Shown here: one piece after another, positions 36,729-58,021 of the stretch
Position numbering within the stretch: the first letter of the stretch is position 1
Layout of the letters: each line of letters begins with the position of its first letter
From: Caulobacter hibisci
GTDB lineage: Bacteria; Pseudomonadota; Alphaproteobacteria; Caulobacterales; Caulobacteraceae
NCBI RefSeq assembly: GCF_016135805.1
Contig: NZ_JADWOX010000005.1
Span: 1-64,000 of the forward strand
Length of the DNA stretch: 64,000 bases
Direction of reading: 5' to 3'
Made by a program: the position numbers and the translations under genes
Notes under the pieces: model-generated
What the model saw: the letters and a program-made list of their open reading frames with translations, nothing else
The model's database searches: none
What the model was told of the DNA's origin: nothing

Positions 36729-37337
36729 ATGACCACCGCCGCCCTCTCGACCGCCGCCAAGAAGCCGCGCCGCAACCGGCGTCGGCCTTCCGCGCGCTGG
36801 ACGCGGGCGGGCCTGCTGGTGTTCGCCGTCGGGGTGGGCGTCGCCGTGGTCGGCCAGACGGCGTATCGGATGATCGACGCCCGCAACGCGGTGAAGGCCG
36901 CCACGGCCGCGCCGCTGGCCATGGACAACCCGCGCTTCACCGGGGCCATGCGCGACGGCCGCGCCTTCCTGATCACCGCCCGCCGCGCCGAGCGCGACCC
37001 GGCCGATCCCAACAAGGTCAAGCTGGTCGACCCGACCCTGGTGCGCGGCTACGGCGCGCCCGAGGCCAGCCGGGTGACCTCGAAAAGCGGCGTCTACCAG
37101 GAAGCCCAGAACCTGCTGGTGCTGACCCAGGACGTGAAGATCGACAACGGCCAGGGCTACCAGTTCGCCTCGCAGGAGGCCCGCATCGACACCAAGACCG
37201 GCGAGGCGCTCGGCCCGATGGCCGTGGCCGGCACCGGTCCGCAGGGCAATGTCCGCGCCGACAGCTACAGCGTCAGCGACAAGGGCGACCGCGTGGTCTT
37301 CAAGGGCCGCGTCCGCACCCGCGTCCAGACCCAGTAG
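36729..37337 (+). CDS. LptC-family periplasmic protein heading the sphingolipid cluster
   Basis: A 202 aa protein with a basic cytoplasmic tail (KKPRRNRRRPSARW), one membrane helix (AGLLVFAVGVGVAVVGQTAY, about residues 28-48) and a beta-strand-rich periplasmic part of the LptC/YrbK type (VTSKSGVYQEAQNLLVLTQD, then VKIDNGQGYQFASQEARID). LptC bridges LptFG to LptA in LPS transport. Here it is the first gene of the run leading to serine palmitoyltransferase and lacks neighbouring lptA and lptB, so it may serve sphingolipid rather than LPS transport. That is inference. The next gene starts 11 bp after its stop. Confidence 0.8.
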   Translation: MTTAALSTAAKKPRRNRRRPSARWTRAGLLVFAVGVGVAVVGQTAYRMIDARNAVKAATAAPLAMDNPRFTGAMRDGRAFLITARRAERDPADPNKVKLVDPTLVRGYGAPEASRVTSKSGVYQEAQNLLVLTQDVKIDNGQGYQFASQEARIDTKTGEALGPMAVAGTGPQGNVRADSYSVSDKGDRVVFKGRVRTRVQTQ

Positions 37338-37348
37338 GCCCGCGCGAC

Positions 37349-38503
37349 ATGACCGGCCTCGGACTCTTGGACCGCGCCCGCGCGACCCGCATCTGCTTTC
37401 TCTACATCGCCCAGCCGCACCAGGTCTGGCACAGCCTGTCGACGGCCGTGGCCCTGGCGCGCGGCTGGCCGGAGATCCAGGTCGAGATCGCCGCCACCTC
37501 GGCCGGCCACCTCGACTACATCCAGGGCATGCTCGACGGGCTGGGCGGCGCACCCGTCACCCTGCGCCTGCTGCCGCCCGCCTGGCTGCGCAAACTGTCG
37601 AAAAACGCCCCGCCGCCCAAGGCCCTGATGCTGGCGCTCAATGCGGCCCGCCTGTCGGGCTACGACGCCGTGGTCACGCCCGAGCGCACCACCGCCCTGC
37701 TGCGCAAGCTGGGCGTTCGCCGCACGGCCCTGGTCTACACCCAGCACGGCGCCGGCGACCGCGGCGGGCCGTTCGAGCCGCGCCTGCGGACCTTCGACCT
37801 GGTCATGGCCGCCGGCCCCAAGCAGCGCGACCGGATGGTCGACGAGGGCTGGGTCAAGCCGGAAGCCTGCGCCATGGTCGGCTATCCGAAGTTCGATCTG
37901 GTGGACGCCCTGCCGCCCAGCGCCGTGCCGGCCTTCGAAAAACCGCTGCCGACCGTGGTCTACAACCCGCACTTCCACGAGACCCTGGGCTCGTGGGCGG
38001 CGTTCGGCCTGTCGATCCTGGAGCAGTTCGCCGCCGACGAGCGGTTCAACCTGATCTTCGCCCCGCATGTGCGCCTGTTCGAGACCGCCTCGGAGGCCGA
38101 CCGCCGCGCCGTCGCCCGCTTCGTGGGCCATCCGCGAATCCATATCGACCTCGGCGGGCCGGCCGCCTTCGACATGACCTACACGCGCTCAGCCGACCTC
38201 TATCTCGGCGACGCCTCCAGCCAGGTGTACGAGTTCCTGCGCACGCCCAAGCCGTGCCTGTTCCTCAATCCGGCCCACGCCGATTGGAAGGGCGACGAGA
38301 GCTTTCACCACTGGCGCTACGGCCCGGTGCTGGAGAGCGCCGACAACATCTGCGACGCGACCGCCGCGGCCTTCGCCGGCCATGGCGACTATCTGGACGC
38401 GCAAGCTGTCGGCGTCGCCGAGACCTTCGACCTCACCGACACGCCGTCGTCGCAGCGCGCGGCCCGTGCCATCGTCGACCGCCTGGCCGCCCTCGACCGA
38501 TGA
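37349..38503 (+). CDS. CDP-glycerol glycerophosphotransferase-like protein in the sphingolipid cluster
   Basis: A 384 aa cytoplasmic protein of the GT-B fold related to CDP-glycerol:poly(glycerophosphate) glycerophosphotransferases. Visible features are YTQHGAGDRGG near residue 135, YNPHFHETLGSW near 215 and SADLYLGDASSQVYEFLRTP near 285, matching the conserved His-Gly and D-x-SS segments of that family. It is translationally coupled to the flippase gene (ATGA at 38500-38503). A role in adding glycerol-phosphate or a related group to the sphingolipid is possible but unproven. Confidence 0.7.
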   Translation: MTGLGLLDRARATRICFLYIAQPHQVWHSLSTAVALARGWPEIQVEIAATSAGHLDYIQGMLDGLGGAPVTLRLLPPAWLRKLSKNAPPPKALMLALNAARLSGYDAVVTPERTTALLRKLGVRRTALVYTQHGAGDRGGPFEPRLRTFDLVMAAGPKQRDRMVDEGWVKPEACAMVGYPKFDLVDALPPSAVPAFEKPLPTVVYNPHFHETLGSWAAFGLSILEQFAADERFNLIFAPHVRLFETASEADRRAVARFVGHPRIHIDLGGPAAFDMTYTRSADLYLGDASSQVYEFLRTPKPCLFLNPAHADWKGDESFHHWRYGPVLESADNICDATAAAFAGHGDYLDAQAVGVAETFDLTDTPSSQRAARAIVDRLAALDR

Positions 38504-39912
38504 GCGGTCCTCAGGAGCAAGCCAAGGGGGATCAGCCCAGGGGCAAGCCGCTGGCCCGCGTGCTGGCCAACGCCGGCGCCCTGCTGGGCGGGCGCGGGGT
38601 CAATGCGATCGTCGGCCTGGCCTATATGGCCATCGCCGGCCGCAGCCTGGGCCTGGCGGCCTTCGGCGTCCTGACCCTGATCAACGCCTTCGCCCAGGCC
38701 CTGGGCGAGGTCGCCAAGTTCCAGTCCTGGCAGACGGTCGTGCAGTATGGCGCCAAGCCCCTGCTCGACGGCGACAAGCCGACCTTCCAGCAGGTGCTGC
38801 GCTTTGCCCTGATCCTCGACGCCATCGGCGCCCTGGTCGGCGTGACCCTGGGGGTCGGCGGGGCCCTGCTGTTCAGCAAGACCCTGGGCTGGTCGCAAGA
38901 CATGGCGCCGGCGGCCGCCCTCTACTGCCTGTCGATCGCGGCCATGACCTCGGCCACGGCCGTGGGCCTGCTGCGCCTGTTCGACCGCTTCAAGATGCTG
39001 GCGGCCGAGCAGGCGATCTCCTCGACCGTGCGCCTGGCCGGTTGCGCCATCGCCGCCGCCCTGCACGCGCCCGTCGAGGGCTTCCTGCTGGCCTGGGCGG
39101 CGGGCACGGTGGCCTCGTTCGCCTATGTCGCCGCCATCGCCGTCTGGAGCCTGCACGGGCGCGGCCTGCTCGCGGGCTTCAGCTTCAAGGGACCGCTCGC
39201 TGCGGGACAACCCGGGATCTGGCGCTTCGCCTGGGCGACCAATTTCAGCAGCACCATCGACGTCGGCTTCACCCACGTCCTGACCCTGGCGGTCGGCGCC
39301 CTGGTCGGCCCCGGTCCGGCGGCTCTGTGGCGCATCGGCCGGCAGGTGGCCGACGGCATGGCCAAGCCCGCCCGCCTGATGCTGCCGGCCCTGCATCCTG
39401 AATTCGCCAAGCTGCGCGCCCAGAAGAACGACGCCGCCATGCTGCGCCTGGCCCGCCAGATCGGCGTGATCGGCGGCGGGGTCGCGGGCCTGCTGCTGCT
39501 GGTCTGCCTGCTGGCCGGACAATGGCTGCTGACGGTGATCATGGGCGCCGAATTCGCCCCCGCCGCCGGCATCATGACCTGGCAGGTGGCCGCCGCCGCC
39601 ATCGGCGTCATGGCCCTGCCGATCGAGCCGATGCTGGTCTCGATGCGGGCGGCCGGCGCGGCCCTGCGGGTGCGGATCATCGTCTGCGTGGCCTACCTGG
39701 CCGCCCTCGCCCCGCTGCTGAAGACCTTCGGCCTGACGGGCGCGGGCGCCGCCCTGGTGCTGGCCATGGCCGGCATGGCCGTAGGCATGCTGCTCACCCT
39801 GCGGTCGAAGCTTCGCCATGAAGCCGCCGCCGAGCGGGAGAGCGAAAACCTATTCGCGCGCGAACAGGCTTGCGTGGACCCCCGGAACGAGCGCAAAGGC
39901 GATCCGCAATGA
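38500..39912 (+). CDS. MOP-superfamily lipid/oligosaccharide flippase
   Basis: A 470 aa membrane protein with about 12 predicted helices and the pattern of the polysaccharide/lipid flippase (Wzx/MurJ-like) group: GGRGVNAIVGLAYMAIAGRS near residue 30, LALILDAIGALVGVTLGVGG in the centre and paired helices at the end. It overlaps both the preceding and following genes by four bases. The most likely role in this setting is to move a lipid intermediate across the inner membrane. No O-antigen polymerase or sugar genes are nearby. Confidence 0.82.
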   Translation: MSGPQEQAKGDQPRGKPLARVLANAGALLGGRGVNAIVGLAYMAIAGRSLGLAAFGVLTLINAFAQALGEVAKFQSWQTVVQYGAKPLLDGDKPTFQQVLRFALILDAIGALVGVTLGVGGALLFSKTLGWSQDMAPAAALYCLSIAAMTSATAVGLLRLFDRFKMLAAEQAISSTVRLAGCAIAAALHAPVEGFLLAWAAGTVASFAYVAAIAVWSLHGRGLLAGFSFKGPLAAGQPGIWRFAWATNFSSTIDVGFTHVLTLAVGALVGPGPAALWRIGRQVADGMAKPARLMLPALHPEFAKLRAQKNDAAMLRLARQIGVIGGGVAGLLLLVCLLAGQWLLTVIMGAEFAPAAGIMTWQVAAAAIGVMALPIEPMLVSMRAAGAALRVRIIVCVAYLAALAPLLKTFGLTGAGAALVLAMAGMAVGMLLTLRSKLRHEAAAERESENLFAREQACVDPRNERKGDPQ

Positions 39913-41621
39913 TTACGCCCACCGCCTCCGGCCGGACCGTCCGGTTCGCCGATTTCCCGACCCTGACCGCCGCCCTGGACTTCGCCGCCACGGGCGAGAC
40001 GGGGATCAATCTGTTCTCGCTGCGCGGCGAACTGGTCGAGGCCCTGACCTACGCGCGCCTGCGCGAGCAAGCCCTGGTGCTCGCGCGCCGCCTGCTGGCG
40101 ACCGGCGCCAAGGTCGGCGACAGCGTCGCCCTGATCGCCGAGACCGACGGCGACTTCGTGCGCGCCTTCTTCGCCTGCCAATATGCCGGTCTCGTGCCCG
40201 CCCCCCTGCCCCTGCCCGCCCCGCTGGGCGGCCGCGCGGCCTATGTCGAGCAGATCGGCCGCATGTGCGCCTCGGCCCACGCCCGCATCCTGATCGGCCC
40301 GGCCGGCATGGCCGAGTGGCTGAAGGAAATCGACGCCGCCGCCGATCTCGACTTCGCCGGCCCGCTGGCCGAGCTGCCGGAAGACGCCAATGCGGCCCTG
40401 CCCGAGATCACGCCCGAGCACCCCTGCTACCTGCAGTTCTCGTCGGGCAGCACGCGCTTCCCGACCGGGGTGCTGGTGACCCACAAGGCCCTGATGGCCA
40501 ACGCCGTGGCCATCACCCGCGACGGCCTGCAGGTCAAACCGCAGGACCGCGCCGTCTCGTGGCTGCCGCTCTATCACGACATGGGCCTGATCGGCTTCCT
40601 GCTGAGCCCGCTGACCAGCCAGATGACCGTCGACCTGCTGCCCACCGGCGCCTTCGTGCGCCGGCCGCTGCTGTGGCTCGACCTGATCAGCCGCAACGGC
40701 GGCACGATCGCCTATAGCCCCACCTTCGGCTACGAGCTGTGCGCCCGCCGCGCCGAGGCCGCCTCGATCGAGCACCTGGACCTGTCGGCTTGGCGCAGCG
40801 CCGGCCTCGGCGGCGACATGATCCGCACCGCCCCGGTCGAGGCCTTCGCCGAGCGCTTCGCGTCCGTGGGCTTCTCCGATAAGGCCTATGTCGCCAGCTA
40901 CGGCATGGCCGAGGCGACCCTGGCCCTGTCGATGGCCCCGCTGGGCGAGGGCCTGAAGCTGGAGATCCTCGACATCGAGCGGCTGGAGCGCGACGACTTG
41001 GCCGTCAGCGTCGGCGCCGACGCCCCGCGAGCCCGCGCCTTCGCCCGCTGCGGCCCGGCCCTGCCCCACCACGAACTGGAAGTGCGCGACGCCGACGGCG
41101 CGGTGCTGGCCGAGCGCCGGGTCGGCCGCATCTTCGCGCGCGGCCCCAGCCTGATGGGCGGCTATTTCGAGCAGCCCGAAGAGACCGCCCGCGTGCTGGC
41201 CGCCGACGGCTGGCTCGACACCGGCGACCTCGGCTTCCTGGTCGAGGGCGAGATCGTCATCACCGGCCGGGCCAAGGACCTGATCATCCTCAACGGCCGC
41301 AACATCTGGCCGCAGGACCTGGAATGGACCGCCGAGCGCGAGGTCCCCGGCCTGCGCAGCGGCGACGTGGCCGCCTTCTCGGTGCCCGGCGACGCCGGCG
41401 AGGAAGAGATCGTCACCATCCTGGTCCAGGCCCGCGGCGGCGACGCCGACAGCCGCGCGGCCCTGGTCGAGACCGTCGCAGGCGTGCTGCGCGCCCGTCA
41501 TGGCGTCGAGACCCAGGTCAAGCTGGTCGGGGCCCACGCCCTGCCCCAGACCTCGTCGGGCAAGCTGAGCCGCTCCAAGGCCAAGGCCGCCTATCTGGCC
41601 GGCGCCTACGAGCGCGCCTGA
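39909..41621 (+). CDS. Fatty acyl-AMP ligase / acyl-ACP synthetase of the sphingolipid cluster
   Basis: A 570 aa adenylate-forming enzyme. The P-loop-like motif is FSSGSTRFPTGVLVTHKAL near residue 180, lacking the usual lysine (T in its place) as in many fatty acyl-AMP ligases. Further motifs are WLPLYHDMGLIGF, SYGMAEATLAL, DTGDLGFLVEGEIVITGRAK and the catalytic lysine near the end in SSGKLSRSKAK. It probably loads a long-chain acyl group onto the ACP encoded two genes downstream, providing the acyl donor for Spt. It overlaps the flippase gene by four bases. Confidence 0.85.
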   Translation: MITPTASGRTVRFADFPTLTAALDFAATGETGINLFSLRGELVEALTYARLREQALVLARRLLATGAKVGDSVALIAETDGDFVRAFFACQYAGLVPAPLPLPAPLGGRAAYVEQIGRMCASAHARILIGPAGMAEWLKEIDAAADLDFAGPLAELPEDANAALPEITPEHPCYLQFSSGSTRFPTGVLVTHKALMANAVAITRDGLQVKPQDRAVSWLPLYHDMGLIGFLLSPLTSQMTVDLLPTGAFVRRPLLWLDLISRNGGTIAYSPTFGYELCARRAEAASIEHLDLSAWRSAGLGGDMIRTAPVEAFAERFASVGFSDKAYVASYGMAEATLALSMAPLGEGLKLEILDIERLERDDLAVSVGADAPRARAFARCGPALPHHELEVRDADGAVLAERRVGRIFARGPSLMGGYFEQPEETARVLAADGWLDTGDLGFLVEGEIVITGRAKDLIILNGRNIWPQDLEWTAEREVPGLRSGDVAAFSVPGDAGEEEIVTILVQARGGDADSRAALVETVAGVLRARHGVETQVKLVGAHALPQTSSGKLSRSKAKAAYLAGAYERA

Positions 41622-41625
41622 GGCC

Positions 41626-42576
41626 GTGAGCGGCCGGGGGATCATCGCCGTCACCGGCGCCACCGGCTTTCTCGGCCAGCATCTGGTCCGCGCCCTGGCC
41701 GAGGCCGGCTACACGCCCCGCATCCTGTCGCGCCGCGATCCAGTCTCGCCGTTCTGGCGCGGGATCGAGCCGCAGGTGGTGTTCGGCGACCTGGCCAACG
41801 CTGCGGCCCTCGAACACCTCTGCGACGGCGCCAGCGCCGTTATCCACGCGGCGGGCCTGATCAAGGCCGCCTCGCGCGCCGGCTTCGACAAGGTCAATGT
41901 CGACGGGGCAGTCGCCGTGGCGACGGCCGCCGCCCGGGCCGGCGCCCGTTTCGCGCTGATCTCCAGCCTCGCCGCGCGCGAGCCGCAGCTGTCGGACTAC
42001 GCCGCCAGCAAGCGGGCTGGCGAAGAGGCGGTGCTGGCCGCCGCGCCCGGCGCCCTGGTTGTCCGCCCGCCAGCCATCTACGGCCCCGGCGACCGCGAGA
42101 CCCTGGGCCTGTTCGCCGCCGCCCAGAACAGCCGCCTGCTGCCGGTGCTGTCGCCCGCCTCGCGCGTGGCCATGATCCACGTGCACGACGCCGCCGCCCA
42201 GATCCTCGACCTGGTGAAGAGCGGCCGCACGGGCCTGGCCGCGATCTGCGACGGCCGCCCCGACGGCTATGCGTGGTCGGAGTTCATGGCCGCCGCCGCA
42301 ACCGCGGTCGGCGCGCCGCCGCCCCGCCTGCTGCGCGTCCCGGAGGCGGTCATCCGCCTGGCGGGGCACGTCGCGGACGTAGCAAGCCGGCTCTCCAAGC
42401 AACCCACGGTGTTCGGTTCGGGCAAGGCGCGCGAACTGTCGCACCCCGATTGGGCCTTTTCGGCCGATCCGTCCCTTGCGCCTTCGCCGAGTCCACACGA
42501 TGTTGCCGCCGGCTTCGGCGATACGGTTGACTGGTATCGCCTTCACGGCTGGTTGCCGAAAAAATACAGCGACTAG
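41626..42576 (+). CDS. cerR: NAD-dependent epimerase/dehydratase-family oxidoreductase, CerR (ceramide reductase) orthologue
   Basis: A 316 aa short-chain/extended SDR. The nucleotide-binding motif is VTGATGFLGQHLVRAL at the N-terminus, and the catalytic Tyr-x3-Lys is YAASK near residue 125. The position two genes before Spt matches CerR of C. crescentus, which reduces the 3-oxo group after ceramide formation. The start is a GTG at 41626, five bases after the preceding stop. Confidence 0.85.
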   Translation: MSGRGIIAVTGATGFLGQHLVRALAEAGYTPRILSRRDPVSPFWRGIEPQVVFGDLANAAALEHLCDGASAVIHAAGLIKAASRAGFDKVNVDGAVAVATAAARAGARFALISSLAAREPQLSDYAASKRAGEEAVLAAAPGALVVRPPAIYGPGDRETLGLFAAAQNSRLLPVLSPASRVAMIHVHDAAAQILDLVKSGRTGLAAICDGRPDGYAWSEFMAAAATAVGAPPPRLLRVPEAVIRLAGHVADVASRLSKQPTVFGSGKARELSHPDWAFSADPSLAPSPSPHDVAAGFGDTVDWYRLHGWLPKKYSD

Positions 42577-42656: not shown

Positions 42657-42908
42657 ATGGATACAGTGACGGATCTGAGTTTGCGTGAGATCGGACTGGC
42701 CGCGAGCAAGGTGCTCGGCCGGACCGTCGAGGTGACCCACGACACCCACATCGGCCGCGATCTCGCCGTAGATTCGCTGGCCCTGATGAACATCGTGATG
42801 GAGCTCGAGGACACCTTCGACATCTCCATCCCGCTCGATCGCCTCGCCTCGGTGGAGACCACCGGCGACCTCTCCAAACTGATCAACGATCTCCGAACCA
42901 AGGCTTGA
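42657..42908 (+). CDS. Acyl carrier protein dedicated to sphingolipid synthesis
   Basis: An 83 aa ACP. The phosphopantetheine serine is in DLAVDSLALMNIVMELED near residue 39 (DSL motif). It is four-helix sized and acidic. It lies three bases before spt and downstream of the acyl-AMP ligase, so it should carry the acyl chain used by Spt. The ATG at 42657 is chosen; the longer frame starts with TTG. Confidence 0.88.
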   Translation: MDTVTDLSLREIGLAASKVLGRTVEVTHDTHIGRDLAVDSLALMNIVMELEDTFDISIPLDRLASVETTGDLSKLINDLRTKA

Positions 42909-42911: not shown

Positions 42912-44126
42912 ATGGGTCTGTTCGACAAGCATCTGGCCTATCGCGACGCGTATAAGGCTATCCAGCAGGCGGGCGCCGACCCGTTCACCGTCCGTTTCGA
43001 CGCCGTCGTCTCGCCGACCGAAGGCGTGGTCGAGGGTCGCCCGACGATCCTGCTGGGCACCAACAACTATCTGGGCCTGACCTTCGACGAGAAGGCGATC
43101 GCCGCCTCGGTCAAGGCCGTCCAGGAGCGCGGCACCGGCACCACCGGCTCGCGCATCGCCAACGGCAGCTTCGAGGCCCACGTGGCGCTCGAGACAGCGC
43201 TGGCCAAGTTCTATGGCCACAAGCACGCCATGGTGTTCACCACCGGCTACCAGGCCAATCTGGGCGTGCTGTCGACCCTGGTCGGCCGCGGCGACCACCT
43301 GATCCTCGACGCCGACAGCCACGCCTCGATCTATGACGGCTCGCGTCTCGGCCATGCGGAAGTCATCCGCTTCCGCCACAACGATCCCGAGGATCTGGCC
43401 AAGCGCCTGCGTCGCCTCAAGGACGTCCCCGGCGAGCGCCTGATCGTCGTCGAAGGCATCTATTCGATGATCGGCGACACCGCGCCGCTCAAGGAAATCG
43501 CCGCCATCAAGCGCGAGATGGGCGGCTACCTGCTGGTCGACGAGGCCCACTCGATGGGCGTGCTCGGCGCCACCGGCCGGGGCCTGGCCGAGGCCGCGGG
43601 CGTGGAAGACGACGTCGACTTCATCGTCGGCACCTTCTCCAAGAGCCTGGGCGCAATCGGCGGCTTCTGCGTCTCCAGCCTCGACGACTTCGAGGTCATG
43701 CGGGTGATCTGCCGCCCGTACATGTTCACCGCCTCCCTGCCGCCGGCCGTGGTCGCCTCGACCCTGACGGCGCTGGAGCAGATGATCGCCAAGCCGCACC
43801 TGCGCGAGCAGCTCAACAGCAACGCCTGCCGCCTCTATGACGGCCTCAACGCCCTGGGCTTCGTCACCGGCCCGGCCGCCAGCCCGATCGTCGCGGCCAC
43901 CATGCCCGACGTCGAGCGCGCCATCGCCATGTGGAACGGCCTGCTGCAATCGGGTGTCTATCTGAACCTCGCCCTGCCGCCGGCCACGCCCGACAGCCGC
44001 CCGCTGCTGCGCGCCAGTATCAGCGCCGCCCACACCCACGAGCAGATCGATCATGTGCTCAAGGTGTTCGCCGAAGTCGGCGCGGCGCTGGGCGTCATCG
44101 ACGGCCAGAAGCGCGCTACCGCCTAA
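42912..44126 (+). CDS. spt: Serine palmitoyltransferase
   Basis: A 404 aa alpha-oxoamine synthase. It has NNYLGLTFDEKAI, GTGTTGSRIANGSFEAHVAL near residue 75, the aldimine region DEAHSMGVLG near 215, and the PLP lysine in GTFSKSLGAIGGF near 245. Context (ACP, acyl-AMP ligase, CerR, ceramide synthase) distinguishes it from KBL, BioF and HemA: it condenses serine with an acyl thioester to 3-oxosphinganine. The start lies three bases after the acp stop. A strong terminator follows. Confidence 0.94.
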   Translation: MGLFDKHLAYRDAYKAIQQAGADPFTVRFDAVVSPTEGVVEGRPTILLGTNNYLGLTFDEKAIAASVKAVQERGTGTTGSRIANGSFEAHVALETALAKFYGHKHAMVFTTGYQANLGVLSTLVGRGDHLILDADSHASIYDGSRLGHAEVIRFRHNDPEDLAKRLRRLKDVPGERLIVVEGIYSMIGDTAPLKEIAAIKREMGGYLLVDEAHSMGVLGATGRGLAEAAGVEDDVDFIVGTFSKSLGAIGGFCVSSLDDFEVMRVICRPYMFTASLPPAVVASTLTALEQMIAKPHLREQLNSNACRLYDGLNALGFVTGPAASPIVAATMPDVERAIAMWNGLLQSGVYLNLALPPATPDSRPLLRASISAAHTHEQIDHVLKVFAEVGAALGVIDGQKRATA

Positions 44127-48738: not shown

Positions 48739-49859
48739 CACCGCGACAGCCAGCTCTGGATCGAGCCCTTCGGCGCGGCGAAGCCCTGCAGGATCTGGAC
48801 GGCGTGGACGACGAAGCAGACCGCCGTCCAAGCGGCCACCAGCACGAAGCCGACGTCCGGACGGCCGACCAGCACGCTGCCGGTCAGCAGGATGAGGTTC
48901 GGATTGCGGCGGGCGGTGATCAGCCGGAAGAAGCTGTCGAACGGCCGCCAGGCGTGCATCTCCAGCTTGAACAGCGACAGGAAGATCCCCTCCTCCACCC
49001 GCTGGGCCACATAGCCGCCGACCACGATGGCCAGCAGCCACGGCGCATAGGGCATCGGCAGGCCGACCGCGAACACGCCGACATACCAGGCCCACCACCA
49101 GAACGGTGGGTGAACCAGGTCGATGCCGTGGTCGAAGACATTGCCCCATTTGGACGAGGTCAGGGTCACGCGGGCCAGCTTGCCGTCGACCGTGTCGAGG
49201 AAGGTCATGATCCAGGCGCAGACCAGGCCCCAGCCGAACTGGCCGCGCCAGAACAGCACGAAGGCGGCGATGGTCAGCAGGAAGCCGATGAAGGTCACCT
49301 GGTTGGGCGTCATCTTCGCCAGGGCGCACCAGCGCGTGACGATCCGCGCTGGGGTCGGCCAGACGTACTTGGTGACCAGATCGGTGACGCCCTTGTAGGA
49401 GCCCTGGAACAGGCGCTTTTCGACCGCGCGGACGGTGTCCTTGGTCAGGCGCTCCAGCACCGGCGGCTCGCGCTTGCGCAGGGCGCTGTTATAGGCCGAG
49501 CCGACCTCCAGCGCGGTCAGGCGCACGAAGCGCGGATCGATGGTCGAGGGATCCTGGCCGGCCGCCAGGGCCGCGACGGCCGCTTCGGCGACCTCGGCGG
49601 GCGCATTGACCGCCGTGGCCGCGCCCGCGTCGTCGACCAGCACCGCCCAAGGCCGGCCGGCCAGGGCCTTGATCAGCGACTCGTCGAATACCCAGCCGGC
49701 GTGGACGGCGACGATGTCGCCCGCTCCTGCCCCTTCCGAGAGCCCGATCCGGCGATAGAGGCGCGACAGCCGCTCGCCCGAGGTCATGCCCCAGATGCGC
49801 GCCTGGTTCTCGCCCACGGTCACAGCGCGCGAACCCGCCGGATTGATTTCACCCGTCAC
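48738..49859 (-). CDS. cpgA: CDP-alcohol phosphatidyltransferase domain protein (CpgA position)
   Basis: A 373 aa protein. The N-terminal ~150 residues are a soluble domain (VVAVHAGWVFDESLIKALAG-like stretch). The membrane part has a complete CDP-alcohol transferase signature D-x2-D-G-x2-A-R-x8-G-x3-D-x3-D, seen as FLDTVDGKLARVTLTSSKWG followed by NVFDHGID, near residues 193-218. It should transfer a phospho-alcohol from a CDP-alcohol to a lipid acceptor. In this operon the donor is probably CDP-glycerate and the acceptor a ceramide phosphate. The start is a GTG at 49859; an ATG at 49787 is the alternative. First gene of the operon. Confidence 0.75.
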   Translation of the reverse strand: MTGEINPAGSRAVTVGENQARIWGMTSGERLSRLYRRIGLSEGAGAGDIVAVHAGWVFDESLIKALAGRPWAVLVDDAGAATAVNAPAEVAEAAVAALAAGQDPSTIDPRFVRLTALEVGSAYNSALRKREPPVLERLTKDTVRAVEKRLFQGSYKGVTDLVTKYVWPTPARIVTRWCALAKMTPNQVTFIGFLLTIAAFVLFWRGQFGWGLVCAWIMTFLDTVDGKLARVTLTSSKWGNVFDHGIDLVHPPFWWWAWYVGVFAVGLPMPYAPWLLAIVVGGYVAQRVEEGIFLSLFKLEMHAWRPFDSFFRLITARRNPNLILLTGSVLVGRPDVGFVLVAAWTAVCFVVHAVQILQGFAAPKGSIQSWLSR

Positions 49860-49937: not shown

Positions 49938-50825
49938 TTGTCGATATTCCGCCTCGCACACCTTTCGGACCCTCACCTGCCGCCGCCGCCGGGCGCGTTC
50001 GGCCTGCGCGACGTCGCCTCCAAGCGCCTGCTCAGCCGCATCGCCTGGCGCCGCAAGCGCAAGGTCCATCGGCCCGAGGTGCTGGCGGCCCTGGTCGCCG
50101 ACTTGCAGGCCCACGCCCCCGATCATGTGGCGATTACGGGCGACTTGACCAACTTCGCCTCGGACGCCGAGGTCGCCGCCGCCACCCGCTGGCTGCAAGG
50201 CCTGGGTCCGGCCGAGACCATCACCGTCAGCCCCGGCAACCACGACGCCCTGGTCGGCGAGAGCGGCGCCGCCCGCTTCGCGCCCTGGACCGCCTGGCTG
50301 GGCGACGACGAGGGGGCCGCCTTCCCGCAGGTGCGGCTGCGCGGCCCGGTGGCCCTGTTCAACCTGTGCTCGGCCGTGCCCACCGCCCCGCACCTGGCCA
50401 CCGGCCGCCTGGGCCCCGAGCAGCTCGCAAAGCTCGACGCCCTGCTGGCCGACCCGGCCTATGCCGACCGCTTCAAGGTCGTTTTGCTGCATCATCCGCC
50501 CAACGCCGGGGCGGTGTCGTCGCGCAAGGCGCTGGAGGACCAGGCCGATCTGCGCGCCGTCTTCGCCCGCCGCGGCGCCGACCTCGTCCTGCACGGCCAC
50601 GCCCACGAGTCGCTGACGGCGACGATTCCCGGCCCGGACGGTAAGGCGATCCCGGTGCTGGGCGTGCCGTCCGCCTCGGCCTGGAGCGGCGGCCACTCAC
50701 CGGCGCGGTGGCATGCGCTGGAGATCGAGGAGCGCGACGGCGGGTTTTCGCTGCGCGTGGTGGCGCGGGGGCTGGATCCGGAGACGGGCGGGATCCGCGA
50801 GCTTGGGCGGTATTCGGTAGTCTGA
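49938..50825 (+). CDS. Calcineurin-like metallophosphoesterase
   Basis: A 295 aa phosphoesterase. Metal-binding motifs are LSDPHL (D-x-H), ITGDLTNF (GD), SPGNHDAL (GNHD), LLHHPP (H) and LHGHAHE (GHxH), the full calcineurin set in order. No signal peptide or membrane segment. The only reasonable start is a TTG at 49938 (LSIFRLAHLSD). It is divergent from cpgA by 78 bp and could act on a phosphorylated lipid or head-group intermediate, though family members also cleave cyclic nucleotides. Confidence 0.82.
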   Translation: MSIFRLAHLSDPHLPPPPGAFGLRDVASKRLLSRIAWRRKRKVHRPEVLAALVADLQAHAPDHVAITGDLTNFASDAEVAAATRWLQGLGPAETITVSPGNHDALVGESGAARFAPWTAWLGDDEGAAFPQVRLRGPVALFNLCSAVPTAPHLATGRLGPEQLAKLDALLADPAYADRFKVVLLHHPPNAGAVSSRKALEDQADLRAVFARRGADLVLHGHAHESLTATIPGPDGKAIPVLGVPSASAWSGGHSPARWHALEIEERDGGFSLRVVARGLDPETGGIRELGRYSVV

Positions 50826-51535: not shown

Positions 51536-51973
51536 ATGCCCAATCCCACAGCCCTCGCGTTCGGCTATCCCCGCTCGAAAGTCGCGGAGACCGATCGCTG
51601 GCTGGTCCTGGTCCGTCCCAAGCAGCCGACTTTCGGGTCTCTCGTCCTCGTATGCAAGGAACCCGTGCAGGCGTTTTCGGAGTTAAGCCCCGAAGCCTTC
51701 GCCGACATGGGGGTCGCCGTCGCCGGGATCGAACGCGTTTTGAAGGCCAAGGTTGCGTACGAAAAGATCAATTACCTGATGCTGATGATGGTCGACCGCG
51801 ACGTCCATTTCCACGTGCTGCCCCGCTACGACGGCGCGCGCGAGCACGAGGGGGCCAGCTTCCCCGACGCCGGCTGGCCGGCCGCCCCGGCCCTGGGCTC
51901 TGCCGTCGCCTTGGATGACGACGCCGTCGCCCGCCTGGCCGCCGACTTCGCCGAGGCTTGGGCCGCCGCGTGA
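51536..51973 (+). CDS. HIT-family hydrolase
   Basis: A 145 aa HIT-like protein. The signature region is VDRDVHFHVLPRY near residue 85: the canonical H-phi-H-phi-H-phi-phi has aspartate in place of the first histidine. The middle (nucleophilic) histidine is kept. N-terminus RPKQPTFGSLVLVCKEPVQ fits the family. It likely hydrolyses a nucleotide phosphoramidate or nucleotide conjugate. Its stop overlaps the GTG start of the LptF-type gene, so it is part of the permease and ceramide synthase operon. Confidence 0.8.
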   Translation: MPNPTALAFGYPRSKVAETDRWLVLVRPKQPTFGSLVLVCKEPVQAFSELSPEAFADMGVAVAGIERVLKAKVAYEKINYLMLMMVDRDVHFHVLPRYDGAREHEGASFPDAGWPAAPALGSAVALDDDAVARLAADFAEAWAAA

Positions 51974-53199
51974 GCAAGACCAAGAAGAAGCCCGATCCCC
52001 GTCGCCTGACAGCCTTCGGCCTGATCGACCGCTACCTGCTGCGCCTGCTGGGCTGGCCGCTCGCCGGGTGCTTGGGCCTGACCGTCATCGCCCTGCTGCT
52101 CGAGCGCGTGCTGCGCCTGCTCGACCTCTTGTCGCAGAGCAGCGCCCGCTTCGACTACGTCACCCAGCTGGCCCTAAACCTGGTGCCGCACTATCTGGGC
52201 CTGGCCCTGCCGGTGGCGTTCTTCGTCGCCCTGTTCATCGTCATCAGCAAGCTCTCCGACGGCTCGGAGATCGACGCCCTGCTGGCCGGCGGCCAGTCGC
52301 TGGAGCGGGTCGCAGCGCCCTTCGTCTGCATCGGCCTGGCGCTCAGCGTCTTCAGCATCGGGGTGTTCGGCTATGTCCAGCCCTACAGCCGCTACGCCTA
52401 TCGCGCCGTGATGCACGCGGCCGTCAACGCCGGCTGGAACGGCCGCCTGTCGGGCGGCGCCTTCATCGACGACGACGGCTCGATGATGACCGCCGACAGC
52501 GCCGACCTCTCCGGCCAGACCCTGACCCGCGTCTTCATCCGCCGTCCCGACGCCGCCGGCCGCGAAGAGCTGATCACCGCCGCCAGCGCCACCCTGCAGG
52601 TCGCTCCCGACGGCAAGACCGTGACCATGCGCCTGAAGTCGGGCCGCCGGATCGGCAACGACGCGCGCGGCGCCTATCGCAGCCTGGCCTTCGACGACCT
52701 GACCACCCAGGCCCCGCTGAAGGCCGCCGCCGGGCTCCTGCGCGCCCGGGGCGGCGACGAGCGCGAGTTGACCCTGGGCGAACTGGCCCGCCAGGCCAAT
52801 TCCCCCAATCCGGTCGTGCCCAAGGCCACCCTGTGGGCCGAGTTCTACGGCCGCCTGGCCCGCGCCGCCTTCCTGCCGTTCCTGCCGCTGCTGGCCTTCC
52901 CGCTAGGCCTGGCCGCCAAGCGCGGAAATCGCGCGCCGGGCCTGCTGCTGGCCGGGGTTCTGCTGCTGGCCTTCCAGCACAGCCTGCTCTTGGGCCAGAG
53001 CCTGGCCGAGTCCGGTCGCCTGGCCCCCATCCCCGCCGTCGGCGCGCCGTTCCTGGTGTTCACGGGCCTGGCGGTCTGGCTGTTTGTCGGCAGCCGCACG
53101 CGGCCCGGCGACACCCCGATCTCGCGCCTCGTCCTGGCCATGGGCGCCTGGTTCCGCCGCATGATCAAACTTCTCCAGCCCAAGGAGCGCGCCGCATGA
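51970..53199 (+). CDS. LptF/LptG (YjgP/YjgQ) family permease A
   Basis: A 409 aa membrane protein with the LptF/G layout: two to three N-terminal helices (LIDRYLLRLLGWPLAGCLGL as the coupling start), a large periplasmic beta-jellyroll part (about residues 110-290) and three C-terminal helices. In LPS export LptF and LptG pair as the transmembrane part of the ABC machine. The start is the GTG at 51970, overlapping the HIT stop. It is coupled to the second permease and, beyond it, to the ceramide synthase. Confidence 0.84.
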   Translation: MSKTKKKPDPRRLTAFGLIDRYLLRLLGWPLAGCLGLTVIALLLERVLRLLDLLSQSSARFDYVTQLALNLVPHYLGLALPVAFFVALFIVISKLSDGSEIDALLAGGQSLERVAAPFVCIGLALSVFSIGVFGYVQPYSRYAYRAVMHAAVNAGWNGRLSGGAFIDDDGSMMTADSADLSGQTLTRVFIRRPDAAGREELITAASATLQVAPDGKTVTMRLKSGRRIGNDARGAYRSLAFDDLTTQAPLKAAAGLLRARGGDERELTLGELARQANSPNPVVPKATLWAEFYGRLARAAFLPFLPLLAFPLGLAAKRGNRAPGLLLAGVLLLAFQHSLLLGQSLAESGRLAPIPAVGAPFLVFTGLAVWLFVGSRTRPGDTPISRLVLAMGAWFRRMIKLLQPKERAA

Positions 53200-54257
53200 G
53201 GCTGCAGCTCTACGTCCTGCGCACCGTGGCCACGCGGGTGCTCGGCGCCATCCTGGTGCTGATGGCCATCCTGCAGATCCTCGACCTGCTGGAAGTCACC
53301 ACCGACATCCTCGACCGCGGTCTGGGCGTGGGCGGGGTGTTCTACTACGCCGCCCTGCGCGCCCCGCGCCTGTTCGAGCAGGTCGCGCCGCTGGGCGTGC
53401 TGGCCGGCGGCCTGTTCGCCTTCTCGCAGCTGGCCCGCGAGAACGCCGTCGTCGCCATGCGCGCCAGCGGCGTTTCCGGCTACCGCATCGTGCTGATGGC
53501 CGTGCCGGTGGCGATCGCCGTGCTGTCGCTCGACGCCCTGTGCGGCCAGGTGATCTCGCCGCGCACCGACCCGACGCTGAGCGCCTGGTGGGCCGCCACC
53601 ACCCCGGTCGCCGACCGCAAGGCCCCCGTCCCGCGCACCTTCCGCGCAGGCGAGGACCTGGTCACCGCCAAGGAGTCCGTGTCCGACGGCGCGGAACTGC
53701 GGGACCTGACGATCTATCGCCGCGACAAGACCGGCGCCCTGACCGAACGCGTCGCCGCCCCCGTCGCCAGCTACCGGAACGGCGCCTGGCGCCTGGAAAA
53801 GCCCGTCACCACCCGCTTCATGGGCGACCGGGTCGAGCCGATGATCGCCGCCTCGGCCACCTGGCCCACGGCGCTGCGGCCCGCCGATGTCCAGGCCCTG
53901 TTCGCCGACGCCCCCGCCCCCTCGGCCGCCTCGGCCCGCCGGGCGCTGGAGAACGGCGGCTCCGACCGCCCGCAGAGCTTCTACGCCACCCGCCTGCAGA
54001 CCGCCTTCTCCGGACCGCTGGCGGCCCTGGTCATGCTGCTGCTCAGCGCCCCCGTCGCCTGGGCCAATTTCCGCAGCGGCCAAGGCGCCGTCCTGCTGAC
54101 CACGGGGCTGGCCGCGGGCCTGGTCTATCTGGTCGCCGACGGCCTGCTGTCGGCGCTGGGCGAGTCCGGATCGCTGTCGCCGATCCTGGCCGCCTGGTCC
54201 GCCCCCGCCGTCTTCGCCGCCCTCGCGGTGCGCACCTTCGTATCCCTGGAGGGATGA
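53196..54257 (+). CDS. LptF/LptG (YjgP/YjgQ) family permease B
   Basis: A 353 aa partner of the preceding permease: RLQLYVLRTVATRVLGAILV at the N-terminus, the conserved loop FSQLARENAVVAMRASGVSG (coupling helix that contacts the ATPase), a periplasmic domain, and three C-terminal helices. It overlaps the preceding gene and the ceramide synthase gene by four bases. No ATPase (LptB) gene is in the window, so a remote LptB would have to power it. Whether it moves LPS or sphingolipid is open. Confidence 0.84.
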   Translation: MRLQLYVLRTVATRVLGAILVLMAILQILDLLEVTTDILDRGLGVGGVFYYAALRAPRLFEQVAPLGVLAGGLFAFSQLARENAVVAMRASGVSGYRIVLMAVPVAIAVLSLDALCGQVISPRTDPTLSAWWAATTPVADRKAPVPRTFRAGEDLVTAKESVSDGAELRDLTIYRRDKTGALTERVAAPVASYRNGAWRLEKPVTTRFMGDRVEPMIAASATWPTALRPADVQALFADAPAPSAASARRALENGGSDRPQSFYATRLQTAFSGPLAALVMLLLSAPVAWANFRSGQGAVLLTTGLAAGLVYLVADGLLSALGESGSLSPILAAWSAPAVFAALAVRTFVSLEG

Positions 54258-55411
54258 TGCCTTTCGATTCCGCGGCCGAGGCGATCTCGGTCCTGCCCGT
54301 GCGCACGCCTGAAGAACTCAAGCGCTTCATCGCCCTTCCCGCGCGCCTCAACGCCAAGGATCCCAACTGGATCACGCCGCTGTTCCTGGAGCGGACCGAG
54401 GCCCTGTCGCCCAAGACCAACCCGTTCTTCGCCCACGCGCAGGTGCAGCTGTTCCTGGCCGTGCGCGGCGGCCGCGACGTCGGCCGGATCAGCGCCCAGA
54501 TCGACGAGCTGACGCCGCAGAAGACGCCCGGACGCCTCGACGGCCACTTCGGCCTGATCGCCGCCGAGGATGATGCCGAGGTCTTCTCCGCCCTGTTCGC
54601 CGCCGCCGAGGCCTGGCTGCTCGAGCGCGGCCGCACCCATGTGATGGGTCCGTTCAACCTGTCGATCAACGAGGAGGTCGGCCTGCTGGTCGACGGCTTC
54701 GACACCCCGCCAATGGTGATGATGGGCCATGACCCGGCCTATGCCGGGGCCCGCGTCGAGCAGCAGGGCTACGCCAAGGCCAAGGACGTCTACGCCTACT
54801 ACGCCCCGATGCATGTCGACCTGCCGCCGGCCGTGCGCCGCCGCGCCGAGCGTCCGCCGGCCGACGGCGTCGTGCTGCGCCAGCTCGACATGAGCCGCTA
54901 CGACGAGGAGGTCGCCACCCTGACCGACATCCTCAACGACGCCTGGAAGGACAATTGGGGCTTCACCCCCACCACCGAGGCCGAGACCGCCCAGCTGGCC
55001 AAGGCCCTCAAGGCCGTGATCGACAAGCGCCTGACCTGGTTCGCCGAGATCGACGGCGAGGCCGCCGGGATCCTGGTGTTCCTGCCCAACGTCAACGAGG
55101 CCATCCGCGACCTCGGCGGCAAGCTGCTGCCGTTCGGCTGGGCCAAGCTGCTGTGGCGGCTGAAGGTCAAGCGCGTGAAGTCGGCCCGCATCCCGCTGAT
55201 GGGCGTGAAACGCAAGTTCGCCGAGGGCATCCGCGGCCGCATGCTGCCGTTCCAGATGATGCACGCCGGCCGCACCTCGGCCCTGGCGCTGGGCTACGAG
55301 CGCTTCGAGATTTCGTGGGTGCTGGAAGAGAACATGCCCATGCGCCGCATCGCCGAGGTCATCGGGTCGCAGATCTACAAGACCTATCGCGTCTACGAGA
55401 AGGCGCTGTGA
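54257..55411 (+). CDS. bcerS: Bacterial ceramide synthase (bCerS), GNAT-like acyltransferase
   Basis: A 384 aa acyltransferase-like protein. It begins MPFDSAAEAISVLPVRTPEE and has LNAKDPNWITPLFLERTEAL, GPFNLSINEEVGLLVDGFDT and MMHAGRTSALALGYERFEISWVLEEN near the end. These are the hallmarks of the long GNAT-like protein shown in C. crescentus to be the ceramide synthase (N-acylating 3-oxosphinganine). Gene order (LptFG pair, then this, then a nucleotidyltransferase) matches that locus. GGAGGG lies just before the ATG; an ATG three bases earlier is possible. Confidence 0.88.
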   Translation: MPFDSAAEAISVLPVRTPEELKRFIALPARLNAKDPNWITPLFLERTEALSPKTNPFFAHAQVQLFLAVRGGRDVGRISAQIDELTPQKTPGRLDGHFGLIAAEDDAEVFSALFAAAEAWLLERGRTHVMGPFNLSINEEVGLLVDGFDTPPMVMMGHDPAYAGARVEQQGYAKAKDVYAYYAPMHVDLPPAVRRRAERPPADGVVLRQLDMSRYDEEVATLTDILNDAWKDNWGFTPTTEAETAQLAKALKAVIDKRLTWFAEIDGEAAGILVFLPNVNEAIRDLGGKLLPFGWAKLLWRLKVKRVKSARIPLMGVKRKFAEGIRGRMLPFQMMHAGRTSALALGYERFEISWVLEENMPMRRIAEVIGSQIYKTYRVYEKAL

Positions 55412-56166
55412 TCCAGCCCTTCAAGGCCCTCGTCCTGGCCGGCTCGCGGCCGGGCGAGGTCGACAGCGCCGCGGCCTATGCCGGGGTCTCGCACAAGGGG
55501 CTGATCACGCTGGAGGGCCGCACCCTGCTCGATCGCGTGCTGGGCGCGGTGCAGGCGGCGGGCGCGGACGCGATCGGCGTCTCGACCTCCGACGCGGCCA
55601 TCGTCTCGGCCCTGCCGGTCGGCGTCGCCGCCATCGCCGCTTCGACCGAGGGTCCCAGCCAGAGCGTGCGCGAAGGTGCGCAGGCGCTGGGCTTCCCGCT
55701 GCTGATCACCACGGTTGACCACGCCCTGCTCAAGCCCGAGTGGATCGCCCAGTTCCTGACCGATGCCCCGCAAGACGCCGACGTCGCCCTGATGCTGGCC
55801 CCGGAGGACCGCGTCCGCGCCGCCGCGCCGGACACCCAGCGCACCTATCTGAAGTTCCGCGACGGCCGCTTCTCGGGCTGCAACCTCTTCCTGTTCCGCA
55901 GCGAGGCCGCCCTGCCCGCCATCGCCCTGTGGCGCCGGGTCGAGCAGAACCGCAAGCAGCCCTGGAAGATCGCCGCCATGCTCGGCCCGGGCCTGCTGGT
56001 CCGCTACCTGCTGGGCCTGCTGACCCTCGACGAAGCCATCGCCCGCCTGGGCGCCCTGGCTGGCGTCAAGGCCGCGGCGGTCCGCGCCCAGGACGGCCTG
56101 GCGGCGGTGGACGTCGATAAGCCGGCCGACCTCGACCTCGTGCGCAGGATCGTCGGCGAGGCCTGA
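55408..56166 (+). CDS. MobA-like NTP transferase domain protein
   Basis: A 252 aa protein of the MobA/NTP-transferase fold. The nucleotide loop is LVLAGSRPGEVDSAAAYAGV (LAGxRxG instead of LAGGxSxRMG), the DxD-like position is TTVDHALL near residue 98, and C-terminal ALRR-type helices end DVDKPADLDLV. It overlaps the ceramide synthase gene (GTGA). It may activate a sugar or glycerate-type head group with CTP or another NTP. The exact nucleotide and acceptor are unknown. Confidence 0.75.
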   Translation: MIQPFKALVLAGSRPGEVDSAAAYAGVSHKGLITLEGRTLLDRVLGAVQAAGADAIGVSTSDAAIVSALPVGVAAIAASTEGPSQSVREGAQALGFPLLITTVDHALLKPEWIAQFLTDAPQDADVALMLAPEDRVRAAAPDTQRTYLKFRDGRFSGCNLFLFRSEAALPAIALWRRVEQNRKQPWKIAAMLGPGLLVRYLLGLLTLDEAIARLGALAGVKAAAVRAQDGLAAVDVDKPADLDLVRRIVGEA

Positions 56167-56317: not shown

Positions 56318-57253
56318 TTGCCCGTGTTCCGATCCCTCCTGCGCCCCGCCCTGCTGGGCGCCCTGCTGCTGCTTTCCGCCTGCGCCAGCATCGACATCCC
56401 CGCCTCGCCGCGGACGGCGTTCAGCCGCAGCGCCTCGAGCACGCTGTCCGAGGGCGTGACCTACTGGAGCGAGACCCGCGAGAACCCGCTGCGGCAAGTC
56501 TTCCACGTGGTCCAGCTCGATCTGGCCAATCCCAAGGTTCAGCTGTTCGTCTCGCCGCCCAATGACGGCGCGGGGCAGTATCATGCCCGCACGACCTCGG
56601 AATTCGTGACCGCCTCGGGCGCCCTGCTGGCCGTCAACGCCAGCTACTTCGTGCCCTTCAAGCCCGGCGCGCCGGGCGGCGACGACTTCGTGCCCCATGC
56701 GGGCCAGCACGTGGATCCGGTCGGCAAGGTGATCGTCGGCGGCGCCGTCGTCGCTCCACCCGAGGCGCCGGAGGTCGATCCGCGGGTCAACGCCATCCTC
56801 TGCATCCACCCGTCCTTCGTCGAGATCCGCTCGGGCCACACCTGCCGCTGGGACGTGGTCGACGCGGTGGCGGCCGGTCCGGTGCTGCTGGTCGACGGCG
56901 CCGAGCGATCGTTCAAGCACGCCGGCCCGAAATACGCCGCCGACCGCCATCCGCGCACCGCCCTGGGCGTCTCGGCCGACGGCCGCACGGGCTGGCTGGT
57001 GGTGGTCGACGGTCGCCAGACCGTGCTCAGCGAAGGCGCGACTCTGCCCGAGCTGACCGCCTTCTTCCGCGACCTGGGCGCGGCCGACGCCATCAACCTG
57101 GACGGCGGCGGCTCGACCACCCTGGCCGTGGACGACGGTTTCGGCCGCCCGCGCGTGCTGAACTCGCCGATCCACACCGGCGTGCCCGGTCGCGAGCGGC
57201 CGGTGGCCAACCAGCTGGGCGTGCGGGTGACGACGACCGTTTCCGCCCGCTGA
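56318..57253 (+). CDS. Phosphodiester glycosidase (NAGPA) domain lipoprotein
   Basis: A 311 aa protein with a lipoprotein signal (LLGALLLLSACASID; lipobox LSAC). The mature part has the NAGPA domain signature NLDGGGSTTLAV near residue 265 and VNASYF near residue 107, typical of phosphodiester N-acetylglucosaminidase-like hydrolases. It should act in the periplasm or at the outer membrane on a phosphodiester or glycosidic bond. The start is TTG 56318 or GTG 56324. Position next to ceramide phosphoglycerate genes raises the idea of a head-group trimming enzyme; this is speculative. Confidence 0.78.
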   Translation: MPVFRSLLRPALLGALLLLSACASIDIPASPRTAFSRSASSTLSEGVTYWSETRENPLRQVFHVVQLDLANPKVQLFVSPPNDGAGQYHARTTSEFVTASGALLAVNASYFVPFKPGAPGGDDFVPHAGQHVDPVGKVIVGGAVVAPPEAPEVDPRVNAILCIHPSFVEIRSGHTCRWDVVDAVAAGPVLLVDGAERSFKHAGPKYAADRHPRTALGVSADGRTGWLVVVDGRQTVLSEGATLPELTAFFRDLGAADAINLDGGGSTTLAVDDGFGRPRVLNSPIHTGVPGRERPVANQLGVRVTTTVSAR

Positions 57254-57259
57254 GGCCGC

Positions 57260-58021
57260 TCAGGCCGGCGTCGCCTCGGCCGCCGCCCAGGCTTCCGCCA
57301 GCTCGCGGTTTTTGGGCAGGTCTTCGGGGAAGTCCATCTCGGCCCAGTCCAGGCCCTCGATCAAGCGCACGGCCACGGCGTCGTGAGCGCGGGCGATCTG
57401 GTCGATGGCCGACAGGTACCAGCGGCGCAGGCCTTCGGGCGTGCGCAGCGAACGCTCGACGATGTCGGTGAACAGCGCCGCGCCCTCGGGCTCGAAGCGC
57501 AGGAAGCCGATCGACTCGGCGTCGTAGGCGGTGATGGTCTTGCCGATCTCGCGCAGGGCGTCGCCCTCGGTGCGCACCTTCATGTCGTCGGCGTCGTAGC
57601 CGCCGGCCTTGCGGTCGATGGTGACGGTGATCGGGGCCGACGGCGCGGTCAGCAGGCGCTCGGCGATGGCCGGCTCGAACAGGGTGTCGCCGTTCAGCAG
57701 CAGGAAGGTCCCCTGCATCTCGCCGCGCGCCATCCACACCGAGGCCAGGTTGTCGCTGACGCTGTAGAACGGGTTGAACAGGGTGCGCAGGGTCAGGCCC
57801 GGCAGGCGCAGATGGGCCAGCTCGGCCTCGACCAAGTCGGCGGCGAAGCCGGTGACGACCACCACCTCGGTGACGCCGGCCTGGTGCAGGTGGCGGATCT
57901 GCCATTCCAGCACCGAACGGCCCGACAGCTCGACCAGGCACTTGGGCCGGGTGTCGGTCAGCGGCGACAGGCGCTTGCCCTGCCCGGCGCTGAGGATGAT
58001 GGCTTTGACCGGCGGCTGCAT
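57260..58021 (-). CDS. Nucleotidyltransferase (LicC/phosphocholine-cytidylyltransferase-like), CpgD candidate
   Basis: A 253 aa sugar-nucleotide-fold NTP transferase. The signature is AIILSAGQGKRLSPLTDTRP followed by KCLVELSG, and the catalytic acidic residue is in LLLNGDTLFEPA near residue 105. This group includes CTP:phosphocholine cytidylyltransferases. A phosphoglycerate cytidylyltransferase (CpgD) has been reported for the C. crescentus ceramide pathway, and this gene, converging on the phosphodiester-glycosidase gene, is the best candidate in the window. That assignment is inference from domain type and location. Confidence 0.68.
   Translation of the reverse strand: MQPPVKAIILSAGQGKRLSPLTDTRPKCLVELSGRSVLEWQIRHLHQAGVTEVVVVTGFAADLVEAELAHLRLPGLTLRTLFNPFYSVSDNLASVWMARGEMQGTFLLLNGDTLFEPAIAERLLTAPSAPITVTIDRKAGGYDADDMKVRTEGDALREIGKTITAYDAESIGFLRFEPEGAALFTDIVERSLRTPEGLRRWYLSAIDQIARAHDAVAVRLIEGLDWAEMDFPEDLPKNRELAEAWAAAEATPA

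Follow-up and report, generated by a model that had tools for sequence, protein, structure and literature searches.

In two papers from 2024 (PMC11324152, PMC11087976), the available text describes the route or transporter that brings sphingolipids to the bacterial outer membrane as not known, the second stating that no transporter had been identified. Among the closest described systems is the Caulobacter crescentus locus CC_1168-CC_1152 (Olea-Ozuna 2024, PMC11324152), for which LptC2, LptF2 and LptG2, together with the flippase CC_1166, have already been proposed to act in phosphosphingolipid transport, in a paper that states that transport was not investigated there. An Lpt-like bridge has also been proposed for Borrelia burgdorferi, an LPS (lipopolysaccharide)-free bacterium (PMC10353723), which belongs to a different phylum and for which the available text mentions no ceramide genes. 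Here we analyzed 64,000 nucleotides of Caulobacter hibisci (positions 1 to 64,000 of contig NZ_JADWOX010000005.1, the window), part of a 5.57 Mb genome. The sphingolipid cluster of the window (36729-58021) matches CC_1168-CC_1152 in gene order, and is taken as the equivalent locus on that basis. The available text of PMC11324152 does not treat the sharing of LptB, LptA and LptD, the phylogeny of the type-2 (sphingolipid-linked) pairs, or the single pair of genomes lacking LpxC. The basic LptC2/LptF2/LptG2 proposal is already in print there, and the present study adds a survey of 241 genomes of the class. On the strength of this comparison, we consider it likely that LptF2G2, accompanied here by LptC2, is an extraction head dedicated to sphingolipids, mounted on a trunk of LptB, LptA and LptD shared with LPS export. 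The genes on which the argument turns are the following.

36729-37337, + strand: lptC2, LptC-like protein (PF06835, 63.8 bits, cut-off 21)
42912-44126, + strand: spt, serine palmitoyltransferase (equivalog NF047599, 676.6 bits, cut-off 500)
51970-53199, + strand: lptF2, type-2 LptF permease (PF03739, 203.8 bits; type-2 clade support 100/98)
53196-54257, + strand: lptG2, type-2 LptG permease (PF03739, 232 bits; type-2 clade support 98/97)
54254-55411, + strand: cerS, presumed bacterial ceramide synthase (by gene order; no match in Pfam or NCBIfam; homologue in 73/80 named LptF2 loci)

Compared with the E. coli-type LptB2FGC-A-DE bridge, LptF2, LptG2 and LptC2 are clear homologues, Glu84 and Tyr6 of LptF are conserved, and the genome of the window supplies one LptB, one LptA and one LptD. 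In contrast, the pair of the window falls in a clade apart from both the alphaproteobacterial LPS-type pairs and E. coli, its cluster holds no lptA, lptB or lptD, and its presence tracks Spt even in genomes without LpxC. The LptC-like, MOP flippase and LptF/LptG genes that the original prediction had recognized in the cluster all scored above their Pfam cut-offs. The PF03739 match (cut-off 27.9) is near full-length, covering positions 1-351 in LptF2 and 2-351 of 353 in LptG2, while the LPS-export equivalogs TIGR04407 and TIGR04408 were not reached (LptF, 180 vs 230 bits; LptG, 232.2 vs 240 bits), and LptC2 stayed narrowly under the cut-off of the LptC equivalog TIGR04409 (36.2 vs 38 bits). An AlphaFold2 model of LptF2 built from 23 sequences (predicted local distance difference test, pLDDT, 76.7) retrieved LptB2FG(C) chains in 22/22 Foldseek matches at E <= 0.001, with query TM-scores of 0.46-0.58. 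The single-sequence model of LptC2 was poor (pLDDT 51.6) and little weight is placed on it; its sole match at E <= 0.001 was the LptC chain 6mjp_C (E 2.8e-4), followed by LptA, LptC and LptD chains.

The genome of the window carries two LptFG pairs and two LptC, together with one LptA, one LptD and one LptB above cut-off, so that C, F and G alone are doubled. LptF1G1 lies on contig C12, directly before the sole LptD, and contig C23 brings together LptC1, the sole LptA and the sole LptB above cut-off (364 bits; runner-up, 145). The two pairs have diverged widely, with identities over aligned columns of 18% between LptF2 and LptF1 and 24% between LptG2 and LptG1. Close to lptD, lptA and lptB there is thus a second lptC/F/G set, and the supposition that the window carries the only LptC, LptF and LptG genes of the genome, named at the outset as part of a possible refutation, is false. 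It was likewise correct that no lptA, lptB or lptD is nearby, the matches lying on C23 and C12 and the window on C45; the statement had extended to LPS genes, of which LpxC alone was searched, and it is likewise located off C45. On the other hand, to speak of the cluster's own export machinery was too strong: a complete private sphingolipid bridge is ruled out, as no second LptA, LptD or above-cut-off LptB is found in the genome. Since LptB, LptA and LptD are single, LptC2F2G2 can be at most a head on shared parts.

In the survey, 241 genomes of the class, evenly drawn with a minimum completeness of 95, were searched for LptF/G and Spt. At E <= 1e-100, Spt was present in 37/241, of which 36 exceeded the curated cut-off and one, G182, gave a partial match (495 vs 500 bits); because an E. 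coli control also matches in this search, the E limit alone is unspecific and the curated cut-off is the firmer guide. LpxC was searched in 74/241 genomes, namely all 37 with Spt and 37 without it, the latter comprising 6 with at least three LptF/G matches, 6 in which LptF/G gave no match, and a manual selection of 25; the 167 other Spt-less genomes, outside the LpxC test, include four with a single LptF/G match (G021, G026, G065, G140). Two LptF/G matches were counted as one pair after removal of those under cut-off; third matches in G135, G148, G158, G172 and G189 (20-24 bits, under cut-off) were rejected as spurious, and in G018 five matches were interpreted as two pairs, one of the genes being interrupted by contig ends.

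Genomes with both Spt and LpxC had two LptFG pairs in 14/15 cases and one pair in the remaining case (G057). When Spt was present without LpxC, two pairs were never seen (0/22), and 20/22 genomes had exactly one, one of these (G181) with an additional single divergent LptF/G gene (108 bits); the last two, G048 and G206, had none. In genomes with LpxC and without Spt, one pair was found in 30/32, two in G015 and none in G128, and where both markers were missing no pair was detected (5/5). Overall, a pair number equal to the sum of LpxC and Spt fits 69/74 LpxC-tested genomes. Kinship being ignored, Fisher tests for the presence of two pairs gave p 2.5e-9 between Spt-bearing genomes with and without LpxC, and p 6.4e-10 between LpxC-bearing genomes with and without Spt; the 14 genomes with two pairs represent 9 families, and the 20 with one pair and no LpxC represent 11. 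The second pair of G015 (locus L100; 82 and 76 bits) is divergent and perhaps serves another lipid.

These counts bear directly on the view that LptC2F2G2 is a second, spare or condition-specific LPS head that sits in a sphingolipid cluster by chance. Clear homology to LPS exporters and the presence of LpxC in the genome of the window are compatible with such a role; nevertheless, 20 LpxC-less Spt-bearing genomes keep the type-2 pair as their only one, and 31/32 LpxC-bearing genomes without Spt lack a second pair, the divergent pair of G015 being the exception, so that we regard this explanation as very unlikely. The same distribution lends support to the earlier proposal that sphingolipid, and not LPS, is the lipid exported: in 20/20 LpxC-less Spt-bearing genomes that have LptFG, the type-2 pair is the sole one.

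The two sets were also compared by phylogeny, as suggested at the outset. When 127 rows of LptF and LptG were combined in one quick tree, both proteins divided into LPS-type and type-2 sides, the type-2 LptG side being supported at 84 only. Separate, careful trees that included E. coli recovered an LPS-type clade of 28 rows, which includes pairs from LpxC-bearing genomes without Spt (support 100/99 for LptF and 100/100 for LptG), and a type-2 clade of 33 rows (100/98 for LptF and 98/97 for LptG), in which all 20 sole pairs are joined by 13 second pairs; the pair of the window lies inside the latter and outside the former. The divergent second pair of G015, the extra gene of G181 and the genes of G172 were left out of these trees. 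From this placement it follows that the sampled LpxC-less genomes with LptFG hold a type-2 pair and are devoid of an LPS-type pair.

We then considered the genomic context of the pairs, by searching regions of approximately 4-20 kb around them with the sphingolipid proteins of the window. Sphingolipid genes surrounded the sole pair of LpxC-less Spt-bearing genomes in 20/20 cases (for G110 and G181, cerS was the sole match) and the second pair of two-pair genomes in 13/14, the window included, the exception being G169, with a contig of 3.6 kb. By comparison, they were found at 0/15 LPS-type pairs and at 0/16 LptFG loci of genomes without Spt. In addition, a type-2 LptF profile retrieved 340 relatives from a named collection, and among the best 80 of these 340, which were kept, sphingolipid genes flanked 79/80 loci, with cerS in 73 and a 3.8 kb contig as the exception; as the profile was built from sphingolipid-linked pairs, this set shows linkage and not frequency. 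The named loci include Caulobacterales, Maricaulales, Rhodospirillales and the gammaproteobacterial Nevskiales, and the nearest named relatives of LptF2 are from Caulobacter, the top one being Caulobacter sp. D5 (96% identity). In the sphingolipid cluster of one surveyed genome (G130, locus L141, 10955-11776), the open reading frame (ORF) between the CC_1161-like and MOP genes is one that, by eye, we take to be MlaA/VacJ-like.

Linkage alone names no substrate, and the pair could have travelled with the cluster for historical reasons while moving some other surface lipid, a possibility to which the one Spt-bearing genus without detected Lpt proteins would also lend itself. Against this, pair number tracks Spt and LpxC in Spt-bearing genomes spread over 21 families, and the available text of PMC11324152 joins the lptC2 and lptF2 homologues to a phosphosphingolipid gene by cofitness (CC_1159 mutant; CC_1168, 0.78; CC_1156, 0.60). 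We therefore hold a purely historical linkage to be highly improbable.

The remainder of the bridge was investigated by searching LptD, LptB and LptC in 51 genomes (37 with Spt and 14 without), with a threshold of E <= 1e-60 for LptB and up to 43 candidates scored per genome. LptD gave a single match in 48/51, two pieces in G169 and none in G048 and G206; LptB was present in 48/51, with two in G110 and none in G048, G206 and G146. Among LpxC-less Spt-bearing genomes with LptFG, LptD was kept in 20/20, LptB in 19/20 and LptC in 16/20, and each of the 14 two-pair genomes had one LptB. Moreover, using LptB-docking and LPS-contact positions taken from PMC5548808 and PMC6744409 and counting 28 LPS-type and 34 type-2 rows (the G182 pair among the latter), we found that the coupling-helix Glu described as docking LptB (LptF E84 and LptG E88, per PMC5548808) is conserved at the LptF position in all LPS-type (28/28) and all type-2 (34/34) rows, window included, and at the LptG position in 28/28 and 33/34. 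The two types differ at other positions: LptG 40 is basic in 25/28 LPS-type vs 2/34 type-2 rows and LptG 41 in 24/28 vs 4/34, while LptF 29 carries an acidic residue in 0/28 vs 33/34 and LptF 30 a basic one in 2/28 vs 33/34. LptG K40 and K41 have been assigned to the LPS 4'-phosphate and core (PMC6744409).

Several observations weigh against a sphingolipid head on a shared trunk. At the level of residues, the lone type-2 row without LptG E88 is the window itself, which has Ala at this position, as do 27/29 named Caulobacterales loci, while the other named loci aligned have Glu in 48/49 and Ala in 1/49. The LptG 40/41 and LptF 29/30 differences are correlation only, since these positions were chosen after viewing all columns; K40 and K41 are termed not conserved in PMC5548808, and as the K40E/K41E double mutant of E. 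coli grows normally (same source), the LptG 40/41 contact is not decisive. LptG K34, R133 and R136 and LptF R33 do not separate the types; loss of K34/R133/R136 was rejected as a type-2 mark, because alphaproteobacterial LPS-type rows are also without these residues. In the trees, the sphingolipid-linked pair of G182 (L153, beside spt-cerR-aasR) joins E. coli LptF and LptG (99/98 and 100/99), and a single clade counting it as type 2, with E. coli in the tree, was rejected for LptG (approximately unbiased test, p-AU 0.022); because this assembly has approximately 400 contigs and 4% contamination, separate recruitment and a foreign contig are indistinguishable, and the pair was treated as an outlier. 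As to gene content, G057 has Spt and LpxC and only an LPS-type pair. LpxC was the sole lpx marker searched, its absence being taken as absence of LPS, and the LptA search covered the genome of the window only. Furthermore, of the 15 genomes with Spt and LpxC, that of the window alone yielded a second LptC, and LptC2 as a general type-2 component is rejected, none being found in the other 14 at the sensitivity used; LptC2 thus looks lineage-specific. According to the available text of PMC11324152, N. eutropha, A. vinelandii and P. luteola are without CC_1168; no cofitness is given there for CC_1155, nor is the flippase CC_1166 among the values. Finally, G048 and G206, from one genus, have Spt, CerR and CerS homologues without LpxC (loci L236 and L237), with no match to LptF, LptG, LptC or LptD and, among the LptB candidates scored (43/166 in G048 and 43/188 in G206), none that reached E <= 1e-60. 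The ORF after cerS in these two loci appears by eye to be MFS transporter-like.

Some of these points fit an arrangement in which LptF2G2 serves sphingolipids without LptB, LptA and LptD, through another ATPase or carrier, as a flippase, or as a regulator of lipid synthesis. The Ala at LptG 88 in Caulobacterales is in line with it, as are a cluster without lptA, lptB and lptD and the inconstant presence of LptC2 and the MOP gene. In contrast, LptD and LptB are retained in nearly all LpxC-less Spt-bearing genomes with LptFG, the genus that lacks LptFG is also without detected LptB and LptD, and the LptF docking Glu is invariant. Altogether, we find a trunk-independent role unlikely, and favor the extraction head on shared parts.

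Such a head may operate as follows. Ceramide would be made inside the cell and turned to the periplasmic leaflet by the MOP protein or another flippase. LptF2G2 would join the cell's sole LptB ATPase dimer and lift the sphingolipid from the inner membrane. By way of the jellyroll domains of LptF2G2 and of LptC2, the lipid would reach LptA and LptD, both shared components; where LptC2 is absent, LptC1 may take its place. LptA and LptD would then place the lipid on the surface, in Caulobacter as anionic ceramide phosphoglycerates, and LptF1G1C1 would perform the equivalent route for LPS.

The other genes of the cluster are given below; the names aasR, cerR, acpR, cerS, CC_1153, CC_1161 and cpgD were assigned by gene order against the available text of PMC11324152, and the function of CpgD, a cytidylyltransferase, is taken from that of PMC13228409.

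37349-38503, + strand, start approximate: CC_1167-like gene, flanked by lptC2 and the MOP-type gene (no Pfam or NCBIfam match; homologue in Stella locus L216)
38500-39912, + strand: MOP-type flippase gene (PF01943, 35.6 bits, cut-off 28.2)
39909-41621, + strand: aasR, acyl-CoA/ACP synthetase-like (gene order; homologue in 61/80 named loci)
41626-42576, + strand: cerR, ceramide-reductase-like (gene order; NCBIfam epimerase/reductase families matched, every one under its cut-off)
42657-42908, + strand, start approximate: acpR, acyl carrier protein (position only)
46922-47830, - strand: CC_1161-like protein (gene order; no Pfam match)
47827-48738, - strand, start approximate: ceramide-kinase-like (PF00781 DAGK_cat, 39.8 bits)
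48738-49859, - strand: CDP-alcohol phosphatidyltransferase (PF01066, 44.5 bits)
49938-50825, + strand: metallophosphoesterase (PF00149, 48.3 bits)
51536-51973, + strand: HIT-family gene (PF01230, 25.8 bits; homologue in 65/80 named LptF2 loci)
55408-56166, + strand: CC_1153-like nucleotidyltransferase (gene order; weak F420_cofC match, 20.9 bits, under cut-off)
57260-58021, - strand: cpgD-like cytidylyltransferase, CC_1152 (gene order; NCBIfam nucleotidyltransferase matches under cut-offs)

A phosphodiester glycosidase gene (NAGPA, 119 bits; 56318-57253) lies between the CC_1153-like and cpgD-like genes. With the starts as chosen, four successive junctions, from the HIT gene through lptF2, lptG2 and cerS to the next gene, are 4-base overlaps: GTGA at 51970-51973, ATGA at 53196-53199, ATGA at 54254-54257 (with a further ATG at 54257) and GTGA at 55408-55411. 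The reported coupling of lptF2 and lptG2 to the ceramide synthase gene by such overlaps was thus confirmed, cerS being named by gene order. Its use as an argument for shared function was less fortunate: equal junctions are also present between the HIT gene and lptF2 and on either side of the MOP gene, whose ATG overlaps the stop of the preceding gene, and overlap is therefore weak evidence; the HIT gene's counterpart, CC_1157, is termed probably unrelated in the available text of PMC11324152. Similarly, the statement that the LptC-like gene heads the spt operon holds insofar as the run to spt starts with lptC2, and is qualified by a same-strand ORF (35509-36657) ending 71 bases upstream.

In a broader perspective, we lean towards a modular Lpt system, with a trunk of LptB, LptA and LptD and exchangeable LptFG heads, one per surface lipid class. 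As part of this proposal, bacteria that replaced LPS would have dropped the LPS head and would run the bridge, LptD included, on sphingolipid alone, and the number of LptFG pairs would read out the surface lipid classes, as the 69/74 fit suggests. In the literature searched, whose coverage is incomplete, we found no report of such a pair-per-lipid pattern, and LptC2, LptF2 and LptG2 are named only in PMC11324152; few subscription papers were among those searched, and later tests may exist. If the sphingolipid head is real, an exporter of sphingolipids would be named and LptD would no longer be an LPS-only protein. Genomes would also offer a simple readout of the surface lipid class, and the finding would help to explain bacterial life without LPS and bear on drugs directed at Lpt.

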